Below are positions 7,657 through 19,987 of a DNA stretch of 64,000 bases, one piece after another. A program made the position numbers and the translations under genes. Under the pieces are notes generated by a model. It saw nothing but the letters and a program-made list of their open reading frames with translations, had not been told where the DNA came from and ran no database searches. Within the stretch, counting starts at the first letter, position 1, and the number at the start of each line of letters is the position of its first letter. The DNA comes from Methanorbis furvi (GTDB lineage: Archaea; Halobacteriota; Methanomicrobia; Methanomicrobiales; Methanocorpusculaceae): assembly GCF_032714615.1 (NCBI RefSeq), contig NZ_JAWDKA010000010.1, forward strand, positions 1-64,000, written 5' to 3'.

Positions 7657-8994
7657 ATGGATACGATACGCTACTATGATATCAGGTACGTCCGCGGGAA
7701 CTCCACCACAATCACGGTCGAGAACGGCGACGTAGAGTCTGCCGGCTCAAACTTTTTCGGCAAAGCCCTCATCCGCGTTCTCGGCAAACACGGCTGGGGC
7801 TACTACACCGCCTCCCCGTTTGATCCTGACAACACCAAAGCAAAGCAGGAGTACATCGCCCGCGCTGCCCGCGCCGCCAAACTTGCCAATGTCTCTGCAG
7901 AAATAGCCGACGTCCCGCACGGCTCACCCCGCAGCTGGTCATGTTCTGCGAACGAACAGGCAGCAGTCCCGCTTGAAGAAAAAGCAGCACTCCTTCTTCA
8001 GATGGAAGGCCGCGCAAAAATTTCCGAAGTAGTCAGCACATCCGCCAGATACGCAGAGCAGTATCATGACGTCTGGTTTGAGGACTGCAACGGGTACTCG
8101 GCAAAATCCTCCACATGCAGAACACTCTTCACCATCTCCGCAGTCGCCGCCCGCAGCGGAAACATGCAGATGAACTATGAACAGGAAGCAGTTGTCGGAC
8201 CATTGAATCTGAAGGAGTATCTCGACTGCGGAGAAAAATGTGCGAAACGTGCGGTCGAACTCCTTGACGCCTCCGCAGTCCCGGGCGGCAGAATGCCTGC
8301 GGTCCTTGACCCTGCGATTGGCGGCGTGTTCGCTCACGAAGCAGTCGGGCATGCAAGCGAAGGGGACGCAGTCCGCGATGGAGTCTCTGTCCTTGCCGGA
8401 AAACTTGGAACCGCAGTCGGCTCACCTCTCGTCACCATCATCGACGACCCTTCGATGCACGACTACGGCTACGAACCCTTCGATGCAGAAGGCATCGCCT
8501 GCGGTCCGACCGAACTCATCAAAGCAGGAGTTATGAACGCGTACATGCACTCCCGCGAAACCCTTGCCGCCGTCGGTCTTGAGACCGGAGACGCAGGTCA
8601 TGCCCGTGCAGAACCCGGCATGCAGCCTCTGGTTCGGATGAGCAACACCTACATCAAAGAAGGCGACTCCTCATATGACGAGATCATCGCCGAGTGCAAA
8701 AACGGAGTTCTTCTGATCGGTTCCCGCGGCGGTCAGGTGGACCCCGGCCGCGGTGCATTCCAGTTCAATGCTAAATACGGCTACAAAATTGTGAATGGCG
8801 AGACCGCCGGCATGATCCGCGACGTATCGCTCTCAGGAGACATCCTCTCGGTCCTTCACAACATCGCCCTCTGCGGCAGCGAACGAAAAATGTCCTCGGG
8901 AATGTGCGGCAAAGGCCAGTCGGTCCCTGTCTCTGACGGAGCACCGCACGTATATCTGACTGAAGCAATGGTAGGAGGGTCCGGCAATGCATGA
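7657..8994 (+). CDS. tldD: TldD-family metalloprotease
   Basis: A 445-residue TldD protein. The active-site metal motif HEAVGH is at residues 227-232, followed by ASEGD as usual for the family. The C-terminal region contains GSRGGQVDPGRGAFQFNA. In bacteria TldD and TldE form a heterodimer that digests unfolded or modified peptides through a narrow pore; TldE contributes no metal. Here the stop overlaps the start of the TldE gene by 8 bases, which supports a coupled heterodimer. It is preceded by a family B fold-back element rather than a clear Shine-Dalgarno, so a short-leader transcript is possible. Confidence 0.93.
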   Translation: MDTIRYYDIRYVRGNSTTITVENGDVESAGSNFFGKALIRVLGKHGWGYYTASPFDPDNTKAKQEYIARAARAAKLANVSAEIADVPHGSPRSWSCSANEQAAVPLEEKAALLLQMEGRAKISEVVSTSARYAEQYHDVWFEDCNGYSAKSSTCRTLFTISAVAARSGNMQMNYEQEAVVGPLNLKEYLDCGEKCAKRAVELLDASAVPGGRMPAVLDPAIGGVFAHEAVGHASEGDAVRDGVSVLAGKLGTAVGSPLVTIIDDPSMHDYGYEPFDAEGIACGPTELIKAGVMNAYMHSRETLAAVGLETGDAGHARAEPGMQPLVRMSNTYIKEGDSSYDEIIAECKNGVLLIGSRGGQVDPGRGAFQFNAKYGYKIVNGETAGMIRDVSLSGDILSVLHNIALCGSERKMSSGMCGKGQSVPVSDGAPHVYLTEAMVGGSGNA

Positions 8995-10285
8995 AAATAT
9001 GATCGACACTGATGTTATTCTTCGCGCCGGAGAAAAACTTGCAGATGAGATCGAGGTCCTCGTACTCTCCTTTGAAGATCTCTCCCTTGAACAGCGGGAG
9101 ATGGCGGTCTCCGCAGTCTCCGAACATGCGGGCACAACGATCTACATTCGTACCGTTACCAACAAAAAGATCGGAGTCTCGGCAACCTCTGATCCCACTC
9201 GGTGGAAGGACTGCCTCGCAGCCTCGGTCTCTTCGGCAAAACTTGCCGAGCCGGTGGAGGGATGGAAAGGACTCCCGGGTCCGGCAACCCTTCCCGCAGG
9301 CGACGACCCGTTCGATGCAAAACTCTCCATCGATCCTGATACCGCCGCCGCATTTCTGAAACGAATGAACGAAGGAGCGACCGCGCATCCTGATGCACGC
9401 GTGGTGACTGCCGGAGTTTCCCTTTCAAAAGGTCTGTCGGTTCTCGCCAACAGTCACGGCGTCCGGTACGAACGAAAAATGACCGGCATCTCCCTTGGTC
9501 TTGACGCCATTGCCGGTACTTCGACCGGTTACGAGTATGACTCATCCCCGTTCCTCGACCGCATCAATCCTGAGAAGATGGGTGAACAGACTGCGTTCTG
9601 GGCAACCGCTTCACGGAATGGTGTGGACGTTGCAACCGAAAAACGCGACGTCGTCTTCTCCGAACATGTGGTGGACTCGCTCGTCCTTGATCTGTTTTCG
9701 GATGCTGTGAACGGAAGAAATGTTCTGACCGGCAAATCGGTCTTCGCCGGAAAACTTGGCGAAGTAGTCGCCGACTCATCTCTTTCGATTGCTGATGTTC
9801 CCATGGATCCGCTTGGCAACAGCATGAGGAGATTTGACACCGAAGGAACGCCCGCATCCCGTCGCGAGATTATCGCAAACGGTGTGTTGTCGTCATACCT
9901 GTATGACTGCAAAACCGCTGGTCAGGCCGGCACATCTTCGACCGGCAATGCTCTTCGCGGCGGTAACGGCGCGACGTACATCGCTCCGCATTGTCTGAGA
10001 ATGTTTGGAAAAGTTTCTGACGTCACCAAGGAGCCGTGCATGTTTGTCCGCGAAGTGATCGGCGCGCACACCGCAAACCCTCTGACCGGCGAGTTTTCGG
10101 TTGAGGTCGCGAACGCGTTTCTGATGGAGGAAGGAGAGTTTGTTCAACCGGTGAAAAAAGCAATGATCGCAGGAAATGTCTTTGATATTCTGAAAAATAT
10201 CGGCGGCATCAGTGCGGAAACAAAAACTTTCGACGGCGCAGTCGTGCCAAAAATGCGTGTCTGTGACATGCAGGTCATCGGCTGA
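8987..10285 (+). CDS. pmbA: TldE/PmbA-family protein
   Basis: A 432-residue partner of TldD. It has the same fold but no HExxxH motif, as expected for the PmbA/TldE subunit. Visible family features are the N-terminal VTNKKIGVSATSD strand region and the C-terminal GNALRGG and FVREVIGAHTANPLTGEFS segments. Translation is probably coupled to tldD through the 8-base overlap. The likely role is peptide digestion or maturation in the cytosol; the natural substrate in methanogens is unknown. Confidence 0.92.
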   Translation: MHENMIDTDVILRAGEKLADEIEVLVLSFEDLSLEQREMAVSAVSEHAGTTIYIRTVTNKKIGVSATSDPTRWKDCLAASVSSAKLAEPVEGWKGLPGPATLPAGDDPFDAKLSIDPDTAAAFLKRMNEGATAHPDARVVTAGVSLSKGLSVLANSHGVRYERKMTGISLGLDAIAGTSTGYEYDSSPFLDRINPEKMGEQTAFWATASRNGVDVATEKRDVVFSEHVVDSLVLDLFSDAVNGRNVLTGKSVFAGKLGEVVADSSLSIADVPMDPLGNSMRRFDTEGTPASRREIIANGVLSSYLYDCKTAGQAGTSSTGNALRGGNGATYIAPHCLRMFGKVSDVTKEPCMFVREVIGAHTANPLTGEFSVEVANAFLMEEGEFVQPVKKAMIAGNVFDILKNIGGISAETKTFDGAVVPKMRVCDMQVIG

Positions 10286-10373
10286 CCAGCTCTTTATTTT
10301 TTATTCAGTCACCAATATTTTGTATGTGCTGCTTGTAAGATGATGGGAATTCTCATATTTGAGTACATCCTAC

Positions 10374-10670
10374 ATGATAGTAATGGCTGCAGCAAAACGT
10401 CTGTGCAAAAAACCTACCTCATATAAATTACCTGTTGATATTGAGGTACTTCTGCATAATGCAGTGGAAAGCGGCGAGTACAACAATACGTCTGATGTCA
10501 TTACTGCTGCACTCCGTTTCTTTTTCCAGCACAAAGATATCAAACAGGTCAAAGACGATATGGAGCTTCTGAAGGTTGACATTCGTGAACTCAATATGAT
10601 GAACCAGATTTTGGAACGACAGATGGCTGATCTTGAGGCGCAGATCAAAGTTCTGCAGTCTCGCAGATAA
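10374..10670 (+). CDS. Ribbon-helix-helix protein with C-terminal coiled coil
   Basis: About 98 residues. SYKLPVDIEVLLHNAVES looks like the strand and first helix of an RHH (CopG/ParD-like) DNA-binding domain, and NNTSDVITAALRFFFQH like the second helix. After residue 60, ELLKVDIRELNMMNQILERQM...LEAQIKVL forms a predicted coiled coil that could mediate oligomerisation. The start is uncertain: ATG at 10374 or 10383, or TTG at 10359, none with a clear Shine-Dalgarno. No toxin gene follows, so I read it as a solitary regulator rather than an antitoxin. Confidence 0.7.
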   Translation: MIVMAAAKRLCKKPTSYKLPVDIEVLLHNAVESGEYNNTSDVITAALRFFFQHKDIKQVKDDMELLKVDIRELNMMNQILERQMADLEAQIKVLQSRR

Positions 10671-10736
10671 TTTTTCATTTTTGAGAAATTTTTTCAGGCA
10701 AAGACTGATATTCTGCCGTGTTCAACATTCCATTGT

Positions 10737-11573
10737 ATGATGGTACCCCGTCTTCTTTCAATACTTCTTGTCATTGTACTGGTGGTTGTTTCTGTCGGAT
10801 ATCTGACAGGCGCGATCGGTGAAGGCTATGGTGACTCAGGAAATGTTTTTTCATTCCTCTCTCCGACATCCTCTCCGACACCCCTTCCGACGCGGGTTTC
10901 CGTGACTCCTTCGGTAACTTCGACGCCAACGGCTGTTCCTACCTGGGATACGATTCCGATCTCTTCGCAGGTGAATGAGATCGTGACCTTTACTCCAACA
11001 GTTACGATGACTGCCGCTGTACCAACGATGAATGATGTTACTCCTGCGTATGTTGTTCACATGGATGACACCATGCAGTACAACAGTTCCACCGAACGGA
11101 TGTTTGAACTGGATGTTGTTGAGGTGCCGTTTGTTCTCTACTTCTCCTTCAATCCGGGAAAGGTAAAAAAGATGTATCTCACTAAGGATGCAACTTCGGC
11201 AAACACGGTGAGCTATAGTTCCTGGAACCCTGCGACCGGCAAATATGGATCATGGTCCGAAACTGAGTCACGGTATTCGGTAAAGTCGACGGATGTGATC
11301 GATCCAAATGCATGGTTCAGGATTGATGTGATTCGCGTCTATGATGATCCGAAGCAGTACGCTGATGCGGTTCAGCTTGGCGGCGGGAAGGAAAAACTTG
11401 CTGAGAAGAAACTTCTCTATGGTGATAACGGAATTATTGTGAAGCAGGATGGTTACGCCCGCGGCTACAGCAGTGAAGTTGAAAAAGAGCTGAAGCTTTT
11501 CAGTTCAGGTCATTATATCATAAAAGTTACAGGAAATCAGATTGTTGCAAATATTCAGATGCTTTCACCATAA
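10737..11573 (+). CDS. Surface protein with Ser/Thr/Pro-rich stalk
   Basis: A 278-residue protein. An N-terminal hydrophobic helix (LLSILLVIVLVVVSVGYLTG) serves as signal or membrane anchor. A Pro/Ser/Thr-rich stalk of about 60 residues (SPTSSPTPLPTRVSVTPS) follows, as in glycosylated surface proteins. The C-terminal 170 residues are a probable beta-rich extracellular domain (DVVEVPFVLYFSFNP, WFRIDVIRVYDD). I do not recognise the domain. Two adjacent ATG codons are available (10737 and 10740). It stands alone on the plus strand before the pilus region. Confidence 0.7.
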   Translation: MMVPRLLSILLVIVLVVVSVGYLTGAIGEGYGDSGNVFSFLSPTSSPTPLPTRVSVTPSVTSTPTAVPTWDTIPISSQVNEIVTFTPTVTMTAAVPTMNDVTPAYVVHMDDTMQYNSSTERMFELDVVEVPFVLYFSFNPGKVKKMYLTKDATSANTVSYSSWNPATGKYGSWSETESRYSVKSTDVIDPNAWFRIDVIRVYDDPKQYADAVQLGGGKEKLAEKKLLYGDNGIIVKQDGYARGYSSEVEKELKLFSSGHYIIKVTGNQIVANIQMLSP

Positions 11574-11747
11574 TGGTGAACATTTTTTTTGAACAGAAAA
11601 ATAATTCGTGTTGTAAATTATTCATCATACCTTCATCTCTTTAATCCTCTTGCATTTTTCAAAAAAATATCACGAAATATTTTCGTGACAATCATATTTT
11701 TACCGGACAGCATCGCGCAGTTTCTATCAATAAAAAAAGTTTAATTT

Positions 11748-11987
11748 TTATTCATCGTCAGAGTCGGAAGCGTAGATGAGAATTGTTCCATCCTCTCCGT
11801 CCATGGTGTCAGAGACTACCCGTTCAATGACGTCCATCCAGTTACCGGTCGATTCATGTCTGGTGAGGGCACGGGTAAGCAGTTCGGTAAGGAATACTGT
11901 ACGATCCGTTACCCCCTCCTCTTTCATTTTTTCCTCGATCTGTTTTTGTGTCTCCGGTGAAAAGCTTAAGATTAGCTCAGCAGTCAT
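11748..11987 (-). CDS. Small RHH-like protein, partner of a membrane paralogue
   Basis: A 79-residue soluble protein. LILSFSPETQKQIEEKMK, then EEGVTDRTVFLTELLTRAL, fits the strand-helix-helix layout of RHH domains. The tail is acidic (DGEDG...ASDSDDE). Its ATG overlaps the stop of the upstream gene (ATGA), so translation is coupled. The helix-turn segment KEEGVTDR is nearly the same as KKEGVTNR in the membrane protein encoded just upstream, so the two are likely paralogous domains that could heterodimerise. DNA binding is an inference. Confidence 0.62.
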   Translation of the reverse strand: MTAELILSFSPETQKQIEEKMKEEGVTDRTVFLTELLTRALTRHESTGNWMDVIERVVSDTMDGEDGTILIYASDSDDE

Positions 11988-12526
11988 CGTACATCCTCCT
12001 CCTCGGCTCTTTGATCGCCTTCATCATCACCCAGAAGACTTCGTGCCACAAACCTGCGGAACTTCTCCTGAGCTTCAGGGGACTCAACATAGGCAGTGAC
12101 CACTTCCTGTATGGACTCAAGTTCTGCATGACTGCTTTGATTACAGGAAAGTTCCTCTACAATCAATTTCTGAACAAACTCATCCCGGTTTGTCACTCCT
12201 TCTTTTTTCATGAGACGACTAATCTGTTGTTTTGTCGTCTCCGAGATATGGAGGGGGGTCTTTGCCTTTTTTGCCTGCGAAAGCTTTGGGATAAGGGTGC
12301 TGATCATGTAAATGATTGCGAGAAGCAAAAGGACAATCAGCAGAACAAGCAGTATGACAATGAGTGCTATTGCGTCGGAAGAGACGAAGATCATGGCATG
12401 CTGTGGATCCGTAGAAAGTGATCCTGCGCTATCTGCTGCTGCGCACGGAACCGCACCGAACATTACCAGCACAACGGCGATGTTCAGGTAGAACATGATT
12501 TGTTTAATGTTGAGTATGTTAATCAC
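11984..12526 (-). CDS. Membrane-anchored RHH-like protein
   Basis: About 180 residues from a GTG start, or 170 from an internal ATG at 12496. An N-terminal signal-like helix (MFYLNIAVVLVMFGAVPCAA) is followed by a short exposed loop and a strong membrane helix (ALIVILLVLLIVLLLLAIIY, about residues 53-75). The cytosolic part begins with basic residues, then an RHH-like segment (TPLHISETTKQQISRLMKKE then GVTNRDEFVQKLIVEEL), and ends with an acidic tail. The combination suggests a membrane-tethered regulator or a membrane scaffold for its small partner downstream. It lies 238 bases beyond the KaiC-like pair, same strand. Confidence 0.65.
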   Translation of the reverse strand: MINILNIKQIMFYLNIAVVLVMFGAVPCAAADSAGSLSTDPQHAMIFVSSDAIALIVILLVLLIVLLLLAIIYMISTLIPKLSQAKKAKTPLHISETTKQQISRLMKKEGVTNRDEFVQKLIVEELSCNQSSHAELESIQEVVTAYVESPEAQEKFRRFVARSLLGDDEGDQRAEEEDVR

Positions 12527-12764: not shown

Positions 12765-13493
12765 TCAAACATTTTCCGGTTTTGTCAGGTACGCCACTCC
12801 GCGTTCATCGAACTCCAGCACTTTTCCTGAATGTTCATGTCTGTTGTACCGGGTTTTGAGAATCAGCAGAACTTTTTTGTACGGATTGAGATAGGTGTCT
12901 TTGGGGAACTCCCGAAAGAGCAGTATCACATTGTCGGCGAACTCTTCAGAGTATCCGCTCATGCTTTGTAAGGATCTCGCCGAACTTGTAGAAAGTACAA
13001 TGAAGGAGGTACAGGGAATGGATTTGAGTGTCCAGTAGATGTGGTATACCGACATAATTGGAACATTATCGTTTATACGCAGCGATTCTTCATAAATGGT
13101 CAGCGGATCAATTACCAGACGGGAGATGCTGAGATTTCTCAGGAGTTCCGGCAGACCATTTCCCAGATAGTAGGAGAGGGAATCAAAATTTTTTGGGTCC
13201 AGTTTCATAAAATGGAGCTGATGATCCAGTTTATCCTCTATCCATGGATACATGTCCAGCAATTTTTTCTTAAGTCTGTTGATATCATGGGTCAAGCTGA
13301 TAAAGAGAACATTCTCTCCTTCAGTTACTCCGCCAACGAGAAACTGAAGAGCTATCGTGGTTCTGCCGATTCCACTATCTCCAATCAATGCGGTTACGGT
13401 ATTTTCCATGAACCCGCCGTCTATCATCTCATCGAGCCCGGCAAGACCGGTGGAAAGTTTTCGCTCTCCCTGCACAATGATGTCCGTTAACAT
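12765..13493 (-). CDS. KaiC/FlaH-like RecA-fold ATPase with Arg in Walker A
   Basis: A 242-residue single-domain KaiC-like protein. STGLAGLDEMIDGGF is the KaiC signature near residues 14-28. The P-loop reads GDSGIGRTT (about 39-47), where the invariant lysine is arginine. A Walker B-like strand is LVIDPLTIYEE (about 140). The C-terminus continues KVLLILKTRYNRHE...VLEFDERG. Its ATG directly abuts the TAG of the upstream paralogue. In archaella FlaH has this fold and sits beneath the motor ATPase; the divergent neighbours are a pilin, a GspE-type ATPase and a platform protein, so a similar regulatory or scaffold role is inferred. Confidence 0.8.
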   Translation of the reverse strand: MLTDIIVQGERKLSTGLAGLDEMIDGGFMENTVTALIGDSGIGRTTIALQFLVGGVTEGENVLFISLTHDINRLKKKLLDMYPWIEDKLDHQLHFMKLDPKNFDSLSYYLGNGLPELLRNLSISRLVIDPLTIYEESLRINDNVPIMSVYHIYWTLKSIPCTSFIVLSTSSARSLQSMSGYSEEFADNVILLFREFPKDTYLNPYKKVLLILKTRYNRHEHSGKVLEFDERGVAYLTKPENV

Positions 13494-14360
13494 CTACGCC
13501 ACTGTTCTCATGTTTGTGATTTCAAAACCTGTTTTCGTGGTTACGTTCACGTTGAAGATTACCATGTCACGCTGATCGATTAAAGGAAGTACTCCGTCAA
13601 ATTTCTGAAGATACATCTGCCGCTGACGTTTCGTTTCTGTTTCTTTCTGCCAGAACAGATGAATCACTCCGTCACAGGTGTCGACCAGTTCAGTTTCCTG
13701 TCCTTTATTTAATACTCCGGCAGTCAGCAGGAATACAATAGTGACTTTCCATATCTCGGATGCGCGTGTCAGTCCCCGCATAAAAGTTACCAGCTCAAGC
13801 CAGGTGTCGGGGGACTTTGTACAGTACGGCAGCAGCGCGGTCAGTGAATCAATAACAACGATGCTTTCCTCAGGAAGGTGGGTGATCTTGTCCATGATGA
13901 CCGTGAGTCCGCCGAAGTCATCTGATACCGGCATCTCCAGCATTCCGTAGACAGGATCTTTGGATCCGTACCAGTTGTAGGGTACGTGAGTTCTGCTGAA
14001 ATAAATGTCCGCAAAATCAGTATAATGGATTTTATCGATCATCTCATTGAACATGTGGTATTTATTTGCGTTGAATAACTCGATGATTCTATTTTTGAAC
14101 TCATTCTTTCCTGTTGTGAGTGACATATAGTGATATTCCGACGGATGCCAGGTGCCTTTTGGTGCCGGCTCGTCGTAAATCTGGGAGTTACAGTACTGCA
14201 TTGCAGATGTCTGCAGAAGCTCAGTACCGCCAGCTCCGGGTTCTGAGAGAATAAGTACTGTTGTTCCTGACGGCACTCCTCCTCCGAGAACCTTGTCCAG
14301 TGTTGGAATATTTGTAGGATGGATTAGTCGTTGTCCGCTTGCTTCCGGCATAGTTAACAT
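13494..14360 (-). CDS. KaiC/FlaH-like protein with degenerate P-loop
   Basis: A 288-residue RecA/KaiC-fold protein. IPTLDKVLGGGVPSGTTVLI matches the KaiC N-terminal signature. The P-loop region reads SEPGAGGTELL (about residues 38-48), with glycine where lysine should be, so ATP hydrolysis is doubtful. A Walker B-like strand SIVVIDSLTALLPY is at about 165-178. It is the first gene of a two-gene operon with the 12765-13493 paralogue (TAG directly followed by ATG). A TATA box at 14381-14390 predicts a very short leader. It is divergent from the pilus motor genes. Confidence 0.8.
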   Translation of the reverse strand: MLTMPEASGQRLIHPTNIPTLDKVLGGGVPSGTTVLILSEPGAGGTELLQTSAMQYCNSQIYDEPAPKGTWHPSEYHYMSLTTGKNEFKNRIIELFNANKYHMFNEMIDKIHYTDFADIYFSRTHVPYNWYGSKDPVYGMLEMPVSDDFGGLTVIMDKITHLPEESIVVIDSLTALLPYCTKSPDTWLELVTFMRGLTRASEIWKVTIVFLLTAGVLNKGQETELVDTCDGVIHLFWQKETETKRQRQMYLQKFDGVLPLIDQRDMVIFNVNVTTKTGFEITNMRTVA

Positions 14361-14380: not shown

Positions 14381-14470
14381 CTTATATTTTGTCTCTGTAA
14401 AAAGCAAATATAATGTATTCTGACTGCCATACTTTATAGCTAAGGAGTTTCATATTACATACAGAGGAGC
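14381..14470. promoter_or_regulatory. Divergent promoter region of the pilus motor and KaiC-like operons
   Basis: Leftward, AAAATATAAG (14381-14390 on the minus strand) lies about 21-30 bases before the 14360 ATG, predicting a nearly leaderless transcript. Rightward, CTTTATAGC (about 14432-14440) precedes a GAGGAG Shine-Dalgarno at 14464-14469. Two TATA boxes within about 50 bases make co-regulation of the two operons plausible. Confidence 0.55.
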
Positions 14471-14477
14471 CTAAGTG

Positions 14478-14924
14478 ATGGACTTTGCAGATCCATTAGG
14501 ATTTTCTCATGTGAATATCATGGCTAGTAAAAATACCTCGTTCACCCCGGCGATGGGGGTTGTACTGGTAATAGCAGTGATTGGATTACTGGTAGGTTCA
14601 GGCCTTTTTGTGATGGAAAACATCATGACTGAGGTCCAGACAACCCGTGATGTTCAAATCAATCTCGTACTTTCCGGAGATGACATTGTTGTAACAGTGC
14701 TTCCCGGAGACGATGCTGCTTTCTTACGATACGTCACGATCTATGTGGATGGTTCTGACTCCTTTTCGGATGCCGAAAGGACAAAAAGTGCTTCTATAAG
14801 TGTGCCGATCGTGTATGAAAGTATTGCCCATGGTGTTACCGGTACCAGGTTCGTAATGGTTAAGGGAACATTTTCGGATGGTAAAGATGAAATTCTGAAA
14901 CAAATTCGGATTCAGTTCTCCTAA
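14478..14924 (+). CDS. Type IV pilin-like small protein
   Basis: About 148 residues. I start at the ATG at 14478, which has GAGGAG 8 bases upstream; an ATG at 14520 (MASKNTSFTP) is an alternative. After a polar N-terminus, SFTPAMGVVLVIAVIGLLVG forms the single hydrophobic helix typical of archaeal pilin-like or FlaF/FlaG-like proteins. The rest is a short beta-rich domain (VQINLVLSGDDIVVTVLPGD). It is the first gene of the motor operon and is followed by the ATPase after about 70 bases. It may be a stator or minor pilin rather than the main filament subunit. Confidence 0.68.
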   Translation: MDFADPLGFSHVNIMASKNTSFTPAMGVVLVIAVIGLLVGSGLFVMENIMTEVQTTRDVQINLVLSGDDIVVTVLPGDDAAFLRYVTIYVDGSDSFSDAERTKSASISVPIVYESIAHGVTGTRFVMVKGTFSDGKDEILKQIRIQFS

Positions 14925-14992
14925 CACTCATATAATATTTATTGAGAGCAGAGTATCATAGTCGTTGGGATTTCCTGACAAAAACGGGTGTG

Positions 14993-16624
14993 ATGATAGT
15001 GTTCGATAAAAAAACGGAAAAAGAGCCGATTCCGGATTATTGTTTTGAACGGGACGGTGCTCTTGTTTCTCCTGTTTTAGACCCTAACAATACTCCTGTT
15101 GAGTTGTATTGGGCTGTTCCCGGACTGTCCCTTGTGGCGATTGTCAGAACTCCTGAAAATGAAAATTTGTATCTCGTTTACGAGCCGTCACTGACACCAT
15201 TTGAAAAAGAAGTTCTTGAGAGACTTTACTCCGGCGTTCGCAATATTCTGATTCTGGAGGATGTCTATAATGAAGATGACAAGGCCAATGCTTTGTATCG
15301 TGCGATGGATAAGTACATGGAGCGTTTTGGCATTGAACTACCGCTTGTCTCCATCTACAAAATTCGCTATTATCTGAACAGGAACTATCTTGGATGGGGT
15401 ATTCTGGAGCCCCTGCAGCACGACTCCTCAATTGAGGATATCTCGTGTGACGGAATTAATGTGCCGGTATTTTTGTTTCACCGAAAGTACCGAAATATTC
15501 GTACAACCATTGTTTTCAAAAATACCAAAGACCTTGATACCATGGTTGTGCTGTTTGCCCAGAAAACCGACAAACATATCTCGCTTGCAACACCGATTGT
15601 GGACACCACACTTTCTGACGGCTCTCGTATTCAGCTGACGTACGGTACGACAGTCAGTGCTCACGGCTCTTCGTTCACAATTCGAAAGTTCAATGAAGTT
15701 CCGTTCTCACCGATCGATCTGATTCTGAACAAGACGTTTACGATTGATGAGATGGTCTACTTCTGGATGGCTGTTGAGTACAACCAGTCTGTTCTCTTTA
15801 TCGGAGGAACGGCTTCTGGAAAGACCACATCACTCAATGCAGTTGCCCAGTTTATTCCCAAGCTCTCAAAGGTTATTACTATTGAAGATACCCGTGAGAT
15901 TACGCTGAGTCATGAGAACTGGATTGCCAGTGTCGTTCCTGATCCCACCGGATCTTCAGAGGAACGTATTGAGATTACGATGTTTGATCTGTTGAAGTCT
16001 GCGATGCGTCAGCGGCCTGAGTTCATTCTGGTGGGTGAGGTTCGCGGCGTTGAGGCACAGACACTGTTCCAGGCAATGAACACCGGTCACACAACGTTTT
16101 CCACCCTGCACGCAGGCAGTGTGGACTCGGCAATCCACCGGTTGGAAAATGAGCCGCTGAATGTACCAAAGGCAACTATTGAGTCGCTGAATATTGTGTC
16201 CTCACAGGTACGTCTCTATCGTGATGGAAAACAGATTCGCCGGTGTAATGAAATTGTGGAGATCATAGGACTTTCCGAGACAAAAAATGTCGTGGTCAAT
16301 ACGGTGTTCAAGTATGATCCTGCAAGTGATGATGTGGTGCACTCAGGCCAGTCGCAGATTTATTCCCGCATTATGGAAATTGCTGGCCGGGATCAGACCT
16401 GGCTGATACAGGAACGAAGAAAACGATCCCAGTTTATTCGTGCTATGGTTGAACAGAAAATCCGGGATTACCGCGACGTCTCCGAACTTCTCTGGATGTA
16501 TGATGCTATGCCCGATATGGTCGCGGACTCGCTTGATGATCTGAGTGAACTTCTCACGAGTGGTATCACTTCACCCAAGCTCTATCGAAATATGAAAATC
16601 CCCTTGGATGTTCTGAGTCGATGA
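14993..16624 (+). CDS. Type IV pilus / archaellum-type secretion ATPase (GspE/FlaI family)
   Basis: Powers assembly of pilin filaments. About 543 residues from ATG 14993; a TTG at 14942 would add 17 residues. The N-terminal domain contains EDISCDGINVPVFLFH, typical of archaeal members. The RecA-like domain has Walker A GGTASGKTTSLN (about residues 276-287), VITIEDTREITL, and Walker B EFILVGEVRGVEAQ (about 343-356). A His-box segment TGHTTFSTLHA follows. The stop overlaps the next gene (ATGA), so it is co-translated with its platform protein. Confidence 0.92.
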   Translation: MIVFDKKTEKEPIPDYCFERDGALVSPVLDPNNTPVELYWAVPGLSLVAIVRTPENENLYLVYEPSLTPFEKEVLERLYSGVRNILILEDVYNEDDKANALYRAMDKYMERFGIELPLVSIYKIRYYLNRNYLGWGILEPLQHDSSIEDISCDGINVPVFLFHRKYRNIRTTIVFKNTKDLDTMVVLFAQKTDKHISLATPIVDTTLSDGSRIQLTYGTTVSAHGSSFTIRKFNEVPFSPIDLILNKTFTIDEMVYFWMAVEYNQSVLFIGGTASGKTTSLNAVAQFIPKLSKVITIEDTREITLSHENWIASVVPDPTGSSEERIEITMFDLLKSAMRQRPEFILVGEVRGVEAQTLFQAMNTGHTTFSTLHAGSVDSAIHRLENEPLNVPKATIESLNIVSSQVRLYRDGKQIRRCNEIVEIIGLSETKNVVVNTVFKYDPASDDVVHSGQSQIYSRIMEIAGRDQTWLIQERRKRSQFIRAMVEQKIRDYRDVSELLWMYDAMPDMVADSLDDLSELLTSGITSPKLYRNMKIPLDVLSR

Positions 16625-18858
16625 CCCGCAGTCGCAGTTTTTTGACATCAAAGTCGAACTCGCCTGATGATACAGGTGTGCCGGTGTCTGAAAACTGTGA
16701 AGTGTCGGATGCTAGTGAGAATGGTTCATCGAAGGATGATGTTTCCCCATCAAAGAACCGGTCGTTTTTCTCTCGATTCAAACGGGAAAGTACTTCAGAG
16801 AGTGATGACACTCAATCCTGGAGTATTCCATCTTTAGGAGATATTCTGCCACAGATATCTGATAGAGAATCATTGTTGGGAGGCGACACACCGCTTCCGG
16901 AGAGGAGCGGTGCTGTTCCCCATCAGCCTGTTTCCGGGGATTTACCGCGTGTCGGCAGAGGTTTTTTTTCCAGTTATCGTCAGGGGCGTCTGGACGTTTT
17001 GGAGGGGCAGCTTTTTTCTGCCAGGATGCATATCAAAGCAGAGAGACTGTTTTCCATCTCTATCCTCTCAGGAATTCTTGCAGGTATAGCGACGTTTATC
17101 CTGCTCGCTTATCTGTCACAGCTGGTTGTGCCGCTCTCTTTCTTCGCAGTATTTCCTGTCTATGGTGCGATCATCGTTTCCGTCTGGCTGTTGATCGCAG
17201 TTGCTTCGATGTATGCTGCCCATGTCGCGATTTTATACCTCCCAATTGTGGAATGTAACAGCCGAAAAATGCGTATTGATCTGTCGCTTTTCAATGTGGC
17301 GACGTATTTGTATGCATTGCATCACAGTGAGCCGAATCTGTACGCAGTTATTGCATCTCTTGCAAAGCATGCGGCGCCTTACTATGGTGAGGCGGCACAC
17401 GAACTCCGGCAGGTTGTTTTTGATTGTGAGATGACCTCATCTGATCTGTATGTTGCTCTTCTGAGGCTTTCGGAGACGACGCCTTCGGATAAGTTCCGGT
17501 TTTTTTTGACCGGCCTTTCGTCTTCGTACAAGACCATGGGAACTGCGACTGACTATCTGCGGATGAAGGTGGAGGAGCTTCGCAACGAGCTTCGTATTTC
17601 CCAGAAAGTGTATCTGAATACGCTTGGTGTTATTGCGGAGATGTATATTACAATCTTCGTCGCGGGCCCTCTGTTCATTATCATCGTGGTGATGGTGATG
17701 GGTATGATCTCCAGTGCGAATCCTTTGATCCTCGCTGTGATCATTTACGTGATGTTGCCGTTCGGGACTGCGATTTTCCTGCTGATGCTGGATATTATTT
17801 CAGAGATTCATGAGGATAAGTCAGAGAAGCTTCATGCGATGGCTTCGGTTCAGGAGCCTGAGCATTTTCCTTCAATTCCTCTGGTGATGCCAACTGAATC
17901 CGAGTCGCTGATGTTTGCAAAGCTTGCGGAAAATGATAAAAAAATAAAATATCGTTCGTTTGTGAGTTCTCCTGTTGCTCATATGAAACTCCATCCTGAG
18001 CTGGTGCTGCTGTTCAGTGTTCCGTGTGCGTTGATAGTGATCGGCGTTTTGTACTTTTTGTTTGTGTCTGTTCCTCTGACGCCATGGACGTTTATTGACT
18101 GGGTTACAGCGACCGAGGATATTGTGATGGCTGGCGCTCTGGTTGTGCTGATTCCGTTTGCGGTGTTTTATGCAATAAAGTCACGGAATGCCAGGCGCGT
18201 TGAGGAGGCCATTCCTGACTTTGCGGATCAGATGGCTTCTGCAGTGCGGCACAACATGACGCTCGGGCAGGCTGTCGGGCTGATTGCAACAGAGGGTAAG
18301 AGTAATATTTTGGGTGAGATCAATCTGATCCGCCGTGATGTTTACTGGGGCGCTCTGATCACGGATGCTATCCAGAGATTCAGTGATACGGTGCGTCTTG
18401 GTTCGATTGATCGGATGACTATTCTGATCTCTCAGGCAGAGCACTTTACGAACCGTTTGTCTGAGGTTCTGCAGATCATTGCCGAGGATGCGAAGAGTAT
18501 GGTGACTATGAAGACCGAGCGCCGCGGTGATATGCTGCTGTATGTGATGGTGGTGTATCTGGCATTCTTTGTGTTTGTGTTCGTGCAGAGTATTCTTGTG
18601 GTGATGTTTCTGCCGATGATGGTTCAGGGGGGAGACGGGATGTCAATTGTTGGTGGTATGACCGGTGGCGGCGGTATTTCCCTTGATATGTATGATCGTC
18701 TGATCTATCACTCAGTGGTGATTCATGGTTTTTGTTCCGGGCTTGTGGCTGGTATGATGGGTGAGGGCTCAGTACTTGCGGGCGTGAAGCATTCGTGCAT
18801 TATGATGGCTATTGCGATGATTGTGTTTGTTACACTGAAGTTTTTCTTCATGTCGTGA
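16621..18858 (+). CDS. Type IV pilus platform protein with two F domains (PilC/FlaJ/TadC-like)
   Basis: A 745-residue polytopic membrane protein. The first 110 residues are charged and disordered (repeated Ser/Glu/Asp). Two homologous halves follow, each with a cytosolic four-helix F domain and membrane helices: LSILSGILAGIATFILLAYL-like helices near residues 140-195, then a second set from about 460 on, including GALVVLIPFAVFYAI. The family holds the motor ATPase beneath the pilus. The duplicated layout is usual in archaeal pilus systems. It overlaps the ATPase gene by 4 bases and ends just before a fold-back element. Confidence 0.88.
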   Translation: MTRSRSFLTSKSNSPDDTGVPVSENCEVSDASENGSSKDDVSPSKNRSFFSRFKRESTSESDDTQSWSIPSLGDILPQISDRESLLGGDTPLPERSGAVPHQPVSGDLPRVGRGFFSSYRQGRLDVLEGQLFSARMHIKAERLFSISILSGILAGIATFILLAYLSQLVVPLSFFAVFPVYGAIIVSVWLLIAVASMYAAHVAILYLPIVECNSRKMRIDLSLFNVATYLYALHHSEPNLYAVIASLAKHAAPYYGEAAHELRQVVFDCEMTSSDLYVALLRLSETTPSDKFRFFLTGLSSSYKTMGTATDYLRMKVEELRNELRISQKVYLNTLGVIAEMYITIFVAGPLFIIIVVMVMGMISSANPLILAVIIYVMLPFGTAIFLLMLDIISEIHEDKSEKLHAMASVQEPEHFPSIPLVMPTESESLMFAKLAENDKKIKYRSFVSSPVAHMKLHPELVLLFSVPCALIVIGVLYFLFVSVPLTPWTFIDWVTATEDIVMAGALVVLIPFAVFYAIKSRNARRVEEAIPDFADQMASAVRHNMTLGQAVGLIATEGKSNILGEINLIRRDVYWGALITDAIQRFSDTVRLGSIDRMTILISQAEHFTNRLSEVLQIIAEDAKSMVTMKTERRGDMLLYVMVVYLAFFVFVFVQSILVVMFLPMMVQGGDGMSIVGGMTGGGGISLDMYDRLIYHSVVIHGFCSGLVAGMMGEGSVLAGVKHSCIMMAIAMIVFVTLKFFFMS

Positions 18859-19266: not shown

Positions 19267-19549
19267 GTTTGATATATGGTTGGAGGAGGAAAGGGATAAA
19301 ATGTTGCGGTGGGTGAGTTCTGGGTGCCTGATCATCGGTTTTTCGATCATCAGATGTGAGGTGTTTGCGCGCCATGGGTATTTCAGGAGTAATCTTTGAT
19401 GAATTCATGAGTGTTCGATTTCAGGTAAATGCTCATTATAATTGTGTCTATTTCAAAATGGAATTGTAATAATGGACTTGACTGAATTTTTCATTCTGGC
19501 CTGTCTACCCATATCCTTATATCCTGATTGCATCATACAATTATTTATT

Positions 19550-19987
19550 ATGAAGTCTGTAGCTAAGAAAAATGATGCAGTCTCACCGGTTATCGGTACG
19601 ATTCTGCTGGTGGCTATCACCGTTGTGCTTGTCGCAATTGTTGCCGCTGTTGTAATGGGTATGGTCGGCGGCGTTGGCGAGACCAAGAGCGTTGGTGTGA
19701 TTGTCACTCCATTCTCTAACACATCTCAACATGGTGTAATTGTCACTGTCTCCGGTGGTTCCGATTCAGGTAAGATTAATGGAATGAATGTTTACCTTGA
19801 TGGTACTAATCTGGGTGCTGTTAGTGAAACTATTGTTGTTGGTAAGCCATATGAGTTCGGCACAACAACTGATGCAGGAAAATCAGTTTCCGGTACTGTA
19901 ACTGTGTCTGCAAAGTTCCTGGACAACACGACTCAGGTCATTTACACCAACACCGTTGGAATTCCAGCAACAGTATCAACAACATAA
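19550..19987 (+). CDS. Archaeal type IV pilin, likely major-type
   Basis: A 145-residue pilin from ATG 19550. MKSVAKKNDAVSPVIGTILL is a basic leader with a class III prepilin-peptidase-type site before AVSPVIG, followed by a hydrophobic assembly helix to about residue 42. The head domain is short and rich in Ser, Thr, Gly and Val (VGVIVTPFSN, VYLDGTNLG). A TATA-like CTTATATCC near 19517 gives almost no leader. It sits 0.7 kb from the platform gene and shares its N-terminal plan with the pilins at 20592 and 39345. Confidence 0.85.
   Translation: MKSVAKKNDAVSPVIGTILLVAITVVLVAIVAAVVMGMVGGVGETKSVGVIVTPFSNTSQHGVIVTVSGGSDSGKINGMNVYLDGTNLGAVSETIVVGKPYEFGTTTDAGKSVSGTVTVSAKFLDNTTQVIYTNTVGIPATVSTT

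Follow-up and report, generated by a model that had tools for sequence, protein, structure and literature searches.

In KaiC, the Walker A lysine is K52 and the catalytic residues are E77 and E78, while K224 and R226 act on the ATP of the neighbouring subunit (PMC2777353). The KaiC-like protein ArlH (FlaH) assembles into a hexamer; it binds ATP but does not hydrolyze it, and its interaction with the motor ATPase ArlI depends on nucleotide (PMC8978795). In Methanomicrobia, KaiC families co-transcribed with VirB11/TadC genes were described by Makarova, Koonin and Albers in 2016, who proposed a regulatory role for them (PMC4858521).

We analysed a 64,000-nucleotide stretch of DNA (the window), which is part of contig 10 of a 1.85-Mb source genome. 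Its genus is named Methanocorpusculum here and belongs to the order Methanomicrobiales; within its family, the sister genus is Methanocalculus. Two KaiC-like genes of the window, named A and B, are the subject of this study.

RESULTS

Locus organization and family assignment

The two ORFs adjoin as a sequence-only reading of the locus had said, with the TAG of A directly before the ATG of B; the junction DNA is GTGGCGTAGATGTTA, and the A and B frames are continuous across it. Both products match the KaiC-like Pfam family PF06745 (85.5 bits for B and 36.2 bits for A, cut-off 26.6), their P-loops carry Arg (B) and Gly (A) at the lysine position, and the divergent plus-strand operon does encode a pilin-like ORF, a T2SSE/VirB11 ATPase, and a T2SSF/TadC protein (Table 1). 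The two TATA boxes that had been read into the intergenic region came down to one exact YTTAWAW match (14381-14387, plus strand), and shuffled sequence gives 0.8; divergent promoters on TATA-box evidence were rejected as not above chance.

Table 1. Features of the A-B locus and the adjoining pilus genes in the window
Feature	Position	Strand	Remarks
Gene A	13494-14360	-	288-aa lysine-less protein of KaiC/RecA fold, pseudo-ATPase; first gene of the pair
Gene B	12765-13493	-	KaiC-like protein of 242 aa with a single domain; related to TIGR03880 (KaiC_arch_3) but diverged
A residues 39-47, SEPGAGGTE	14220-14246	-	Lysine-less Walker A loop, with an acidic residue two positions further
A residues 253-255, K-F-D	13596-13604	-	Counterpart of the KaiC K224-x-R226 trans finger; HMM alignment with KaiC KFRG
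B residues 38-46, GDSGIGRTT	13356-13382	-	Walker A loop; Lys44 to Arg, codon 13362-13364
B residues 68-69, Thr-His	13287-13292	-	Catalytic pair, E/D-E in other genera (KaiC E77/E78); column matched to KaiC FEE
B residues 213-215, K-T-R	12849-12857	-	KaiC-type trans finger, retained; aligned to KaiC LKFR
Pilin-like ORF	14475-14924	+	Likely true start, judged from the sequence, ATG 14520 (MASKNTSFTPAMGVVLVIAVIG); no match in a Pfam search
PilB/VirB11-type (T2SSE) pilus motor ATPase	14942-16624	+	PF00437, 124.7 bits; intact P-loop GGTASGKT
TadC/PilC (T2SSF) membrane platform protein	16621-18858	+	PF00482, 82.8 bits
Archaeal type IV pilin	19442-19987	+	PF07790 and TIGR02537, both over cut-offs

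Against the 249-bit cut-off of TIGR03880, an NCBIfam hypothetical equivalog, window B scored 161 bits, a complete active site being absent, and the orthologues of other genera scored 299 to 335 bits. The orthology of B to these scorers is seen from its place in the same clade of the tree and in the same slot after A. When tried as ArlH/FlaH (NF052589, cut-off 215 bits), A reached 41.3 bits and B 23.8 bits, and A, B, and the ArlH proteins of the same order form three separate groups in the tree. The equivalence to FlaH that had been suggested for the pair therefore holds as a comparison but not as orthology.

A TldD/TldE-type metalloprotease pair lies at 7657-10285 (plus strand) and adjoins A-B throughout the order. 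Between B and TldE, at 10359-12526, there are four ORFs of 103, 278, 79, and 180 aa, small or membrane-type, an arrangement confined to the sub-lineage of the window, and the 79- and 180-aa products have a similar ET-x-QI...EGVT-x-R segment in common. The source genome of the window carries a second pilus-type ATPase/TadC locus (L140; G000 contig 1, near 243821), whose ATPase belongs to a different clade.

The Walker A lysines of A and B have different histories

Orthologues were collected from 61 relatives, 60 more genomes of the order, and 39 loci from other lineages of the phylum. A single-sequence scan of genome contigs with A as the query gave no match; a profile scan recovered named relatives. 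The columns of A and B were matched to KaiC by profile (HMM) alignment, and "Halobacteria-type" is an inferred lineage label, with acidic proteins among its grounds.

Across the phylum, the Walker A lysine of A is absent in 134 of 137 orthologues, and the loop is remodelled to GxxGAGxxE/D. Within the order, lysine occurs in only 3 of 98 readable loops, all from one genus, and an acidic residue sits two places past the lysine site in 96 of the 98; outside the order, none of the 39 loci has the lysine. Taken together, the missing lysine and the acidic residue indicate, at the level of sequence, that A is a long-standing lysine-less family whose loop was remodelled in a non-random way. The sole A orthologues with a P-loop lysine (L212, L213, and L214) read GSGKIE, yet without the subsequent Thr/Ser, and may represent a reversion or a relic in one genus.

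For B, the lysine is present in all orthologues from outside Methanocorpusculum (85/85 within the order and 19/19 beyond it, 104/104 altogether), and Methanocorpusculum has Arg at this position in 11/11. The second catalytic Glu (E69) shows the same division, with 85/85 outside the genus and 1/11 inside. Both catalytic Glu positions are changed in 10 of the 11 genus members, and in 6 of the 11 the Walker B Asp has become Asn. Compared with a complete ATPase site, window A lacks the Lys, and window B lacks the Lys and has no Glu at 68/69; the Walker B Asp is present in both. A and B are probably no longer able to use ATP in the normal way.

Two altered copies in one operon had been taken as a sign against chance. 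Because all genus orthologues carry the substitutions and a comparison with the nearest species gives dN/dS values of 0.07 for A and 0.21 for B, the substitutions are neither chance nor sequencing error. The lysine survey that the sequence-only reading had called for agrees with it for A and goes against it for B, and a simultaneous loss of both lysines is ruled out by the orthologues: judged from the sequences, the loss is old and family-wide in A and genus-specific in B. The proposed pseudo-ATPase pair stands, with both genes in a single operon and with linkage to a pilus motor, but the lysine losses are neither one joint event nor a general feature of such pairs.

Predicted folds and the trans finger

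AF2 predicted a RecA/KaiC fold for window A (pLDDT 83.5, pTM 0.83), the nearest solved structures being KaiC, Sso2452, and Sulfolobus FlaH (4YDS). Because the A stop and the B ATG abut in frame in Methanocalculus and in the window, an A-B fusion with the TAG read as Gln was folded to stand in for the complex; each domain was confidently predicted as RecA/KaiC, but their arrangement was not (pTM 0.53), and no usable interface was obtained from this fold.

The K-x-R trans finger of B is kept within the order (K in 96/96, R in 95/96). In A, the finger arginine is found in 78/85 orthologues outside the genus and in 0/12 in Methanocorpusculum. Of 20 Halobacteria-type loci, in which A is present but B is not found nearby, 19 have lost the finger lysine, and the arginine stays. 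The finger of A is altered where B is dead (arginine, in Methanocorpusculum) or missing (lysine, in the Halobacteria-type loci), a correlation suggestive of a finger that might serve the ATP of B. We treat it as only suggestive because either change arose as one event in one lineage and because a few genomes lack the arginine although their B is live; perfect co-loss of the finger arginine with the B lysine is weakened by the 7/85 orthologues that lack the arginine while B is intact.

At one Halobacteria-type locus (L241, 4534-5370) and about 19 similar ones, a lysine-less A stands by itself, B is absent, and the neighbours are not pilus genes; in L241, A lies next to a leucyl-tRNA synthetase-like ORF.

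A is inherited together with one motor ATPase clade

Genomes that have both A and B always carry them side by side, in most cases overlapping by 4 bases (translational coupling). Linkage to the motor genes in relatives, which had been put forward as a check, was found order-wide: apart from Methanocorpusculum, almost every genome of the order has ATPase-TadC divergent from A, and the same arrangement is seen in other methanogen-type lineages of the phylum. The A-associated ATPases, including that of the window, form one supported clade in the tree, and all motor ATPases checked have an intact P-loop. In the order without Methanocorpusculum (207 genomes), A and this ATPase clade occur together in 143 genomes and are both missing from 54; 6 have A only, and 4 have the ATPase only, the clade being counted by score with a threshold set by eye between two modes. 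The ten discordant genomes are all many-contig drafts. The genomes behind these counts are not independent, yet several families contain carriers as well as non-carriers. A is thus inherited together with the adjacent PilB-type ATPase clade.

Fate of the pair inside Methanocorpusculum

The window arrangement recurs, in whole or in part, in four other species (L065, L066, L067, and L086, the last without B). In seven Methanocorpusculum genomes, A-B lies beside TldD/TldE, co-directional behind TldE in one apparent operon, and the orthologous ATPase is elsewhere in the genome. Three genomes have A only (L086 and two with a short, degraded A), six have the ATPase clade with neither A nor B, and one (G017) has an in-frame TGA in A; single gene absences are uncertain because some of these genomes are incomplete drafts. 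The absence of A-B where the motor is retained makes the module dispensable in some members of the genus. Where they are retained, A and B evolve under purifying selection (dN/dS 0.05-0.21), and both show long genus branches in the tree. No ArlH over the family cut-off was detected in 25 Methanocorpusculum genomes, and nearly all others of the order have one; the archaellum has apparently been lost in this genus.

DISCUSSION

The reading that we favour, with a probability of about 55%, is that A-B is a conserved ArlH-like accessory module of one PilB/TadC-type motor, made up ancestrally of a pseudo-ATPase A and an ATP-binding B, and nucleotide-independent in Methanocorpusculum. Like ArlH, the pair would oligomerize through its KaiC folds, dock on the motor ATPase, and determine how that ATPase assembles or in which mode it works; an accessory ring or clamp on this ATPase is its most likely form. 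In the ancestor, the only complete nucleotide site would lie in B, and the lysine-less pseudo-subunit A would stack against B and offer its K-x-R finger to the ATP of B. In Methanocorpusculum, B lost the P-loop lysine and the catalytic glutamates and A the finger arginine, which would have turned the module into a nucleotide-independent structural or docking piece; some species then dropped B or both genes. As the genus pair holds no complete site, it is probably a static docking piece, dispensable in some species. The sequence-only reading had offered nucleotide sensing or a purely structural role; sensing is unlikely for B in this genus because the catalytic glutamates are lost as well, and a structural role fits better. 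Speaking against a motor module are the low confidence of the domain arrangement in the fused A-B fold, the loss of the finger arginine of A in 7/85 orthologues with an intact B, the absence or displacement of the module in some Methanocorpusculum, and the Halobacteria-type A, which stands alone in an unrelated neighbourhood.

That solitary A would suit a different role, in which A-B is a cytoplasmic signalling or transcription-level regulator of the pilus genes, a KaiC-like hub outside the motor complex, with the linkage reflecting co-regulation only. KaiC-like proteins have been proposed as regulators of type IV pili (PMC4858521), and Haloferax CirA influences motility gene regulation (PMC13286277). 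We consider such a regulator unlikely, since the domain searches detected neither a sensor nor a DNA-binding domain, the pair is inherited along with one particular clade of motor ATPases, and a phosphorylation switch cannot work with the B site dead in the genus. The gene losses inside Methanocorpusculum raise another question, whether the pair is simply decaying there, with selection relaxed after the use of the motor changed and substitutions that bring no new function on the way to loss. Several members have indeed lost B or both genes, A is degraded in two and interrupted by a TGA in G017, the genus branches are long, and the lack of ArlH implies that motility changed too. However, the low dN/dS of retained copies, their preserved fold-defining residues, and active-site losses common to the whole genus, so that the copies long outlived the loss of the site, make decay somewhat less probable still than a regulator.

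An unconventional use of nucleotide has also been weighed. B retains the remainder of its loop (GxxGxGRT) and its trans finger K-x-R, and its arginine P-loop might still bind nucleotide and keep the pair a sensor; with both catalytic Glu positions changed in nearly every genus member, the Walker B Asp replaced in about half, and an acidic residue in the loop of A, we regard this as improbable. We give hardly any credence to a partnership with the TldD/TldE metalloproteases in place of the pilus motor: these genes adjoin A-B across the order, and A-B runs co-directionally right behind TldE where the motor has moved away, but they are usually convergent, so not co-transcribed, and are not found near A-B outside the order, whereas ATPase-TadC is.

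Returning to the accessory module, a bolder form of it can be put forward only tentatively, in which a phylum-wide lysine-less KaiC paralogue sits with a live partner in a mixed ring under a pilus motor, and the whole ring has become nucleotide-free in one genus while still serving the motor. If true, an ArlH-type switch would have been turned into a static part. One order offers a natural mutagenesis, in which the same ATPase-TadC core is accompanied by a live B, by a dead B, by A without B, or by neither gene; through this series, the need of a KaiC module for ATP and the completion of a neighbour's active site by a lysine-less paralogue become testable.

With respect to described families, A-B agree with arCOG01172/arCOG01173 in lineage, VirB11/TadC operon linkage, and KaiC family, and judged by this linkage and lineage they are very probably the same genes (PMC4858521). 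The pilus linkage of the KaiC pair is therefore already published. That paper names the members ATPases and regulators, and in its main text we found no statement that one member is lysine-less in all its orthologues or that the site of the other is dead in a single genus (PMC4858521). The lysine-less partner and the stepwise decay appear to be new; the literature searched, whose partial coverage leaves novelty unproven, held no description of a constitutive lysine loss in A or a genus-specific death of B.

The likeness to ArlH/FlaH lies in the RecA/KaiC fold (TM 0.78 to 4YDS on target length) and in being encoded with a PilB/VirB11-type ATPase and a TadC-type platform, adjacent and divergent in nearly all genomes. 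The difference is that ArlH is one gene with the intact P-loop GENDTGKS, whereas here there are two genes, and the lysine is missing in both window proteins. The division of labour proposed for a dead and a live paralogue presumably resembles that of non-catalytic partners that lend a finger residue, such as A/V-type ATP synthase subunit B, which we take to be of a different subfamily from A-B, and the A-B heteromer on which this comparison turns is itself inferred. The CI domain of the circadian clock protein KaiC aligns with A-B in its fold, finger, and catalytic columns; A-B differ from it in being two separate single-domain genes, one of which, A, is without the lysine.
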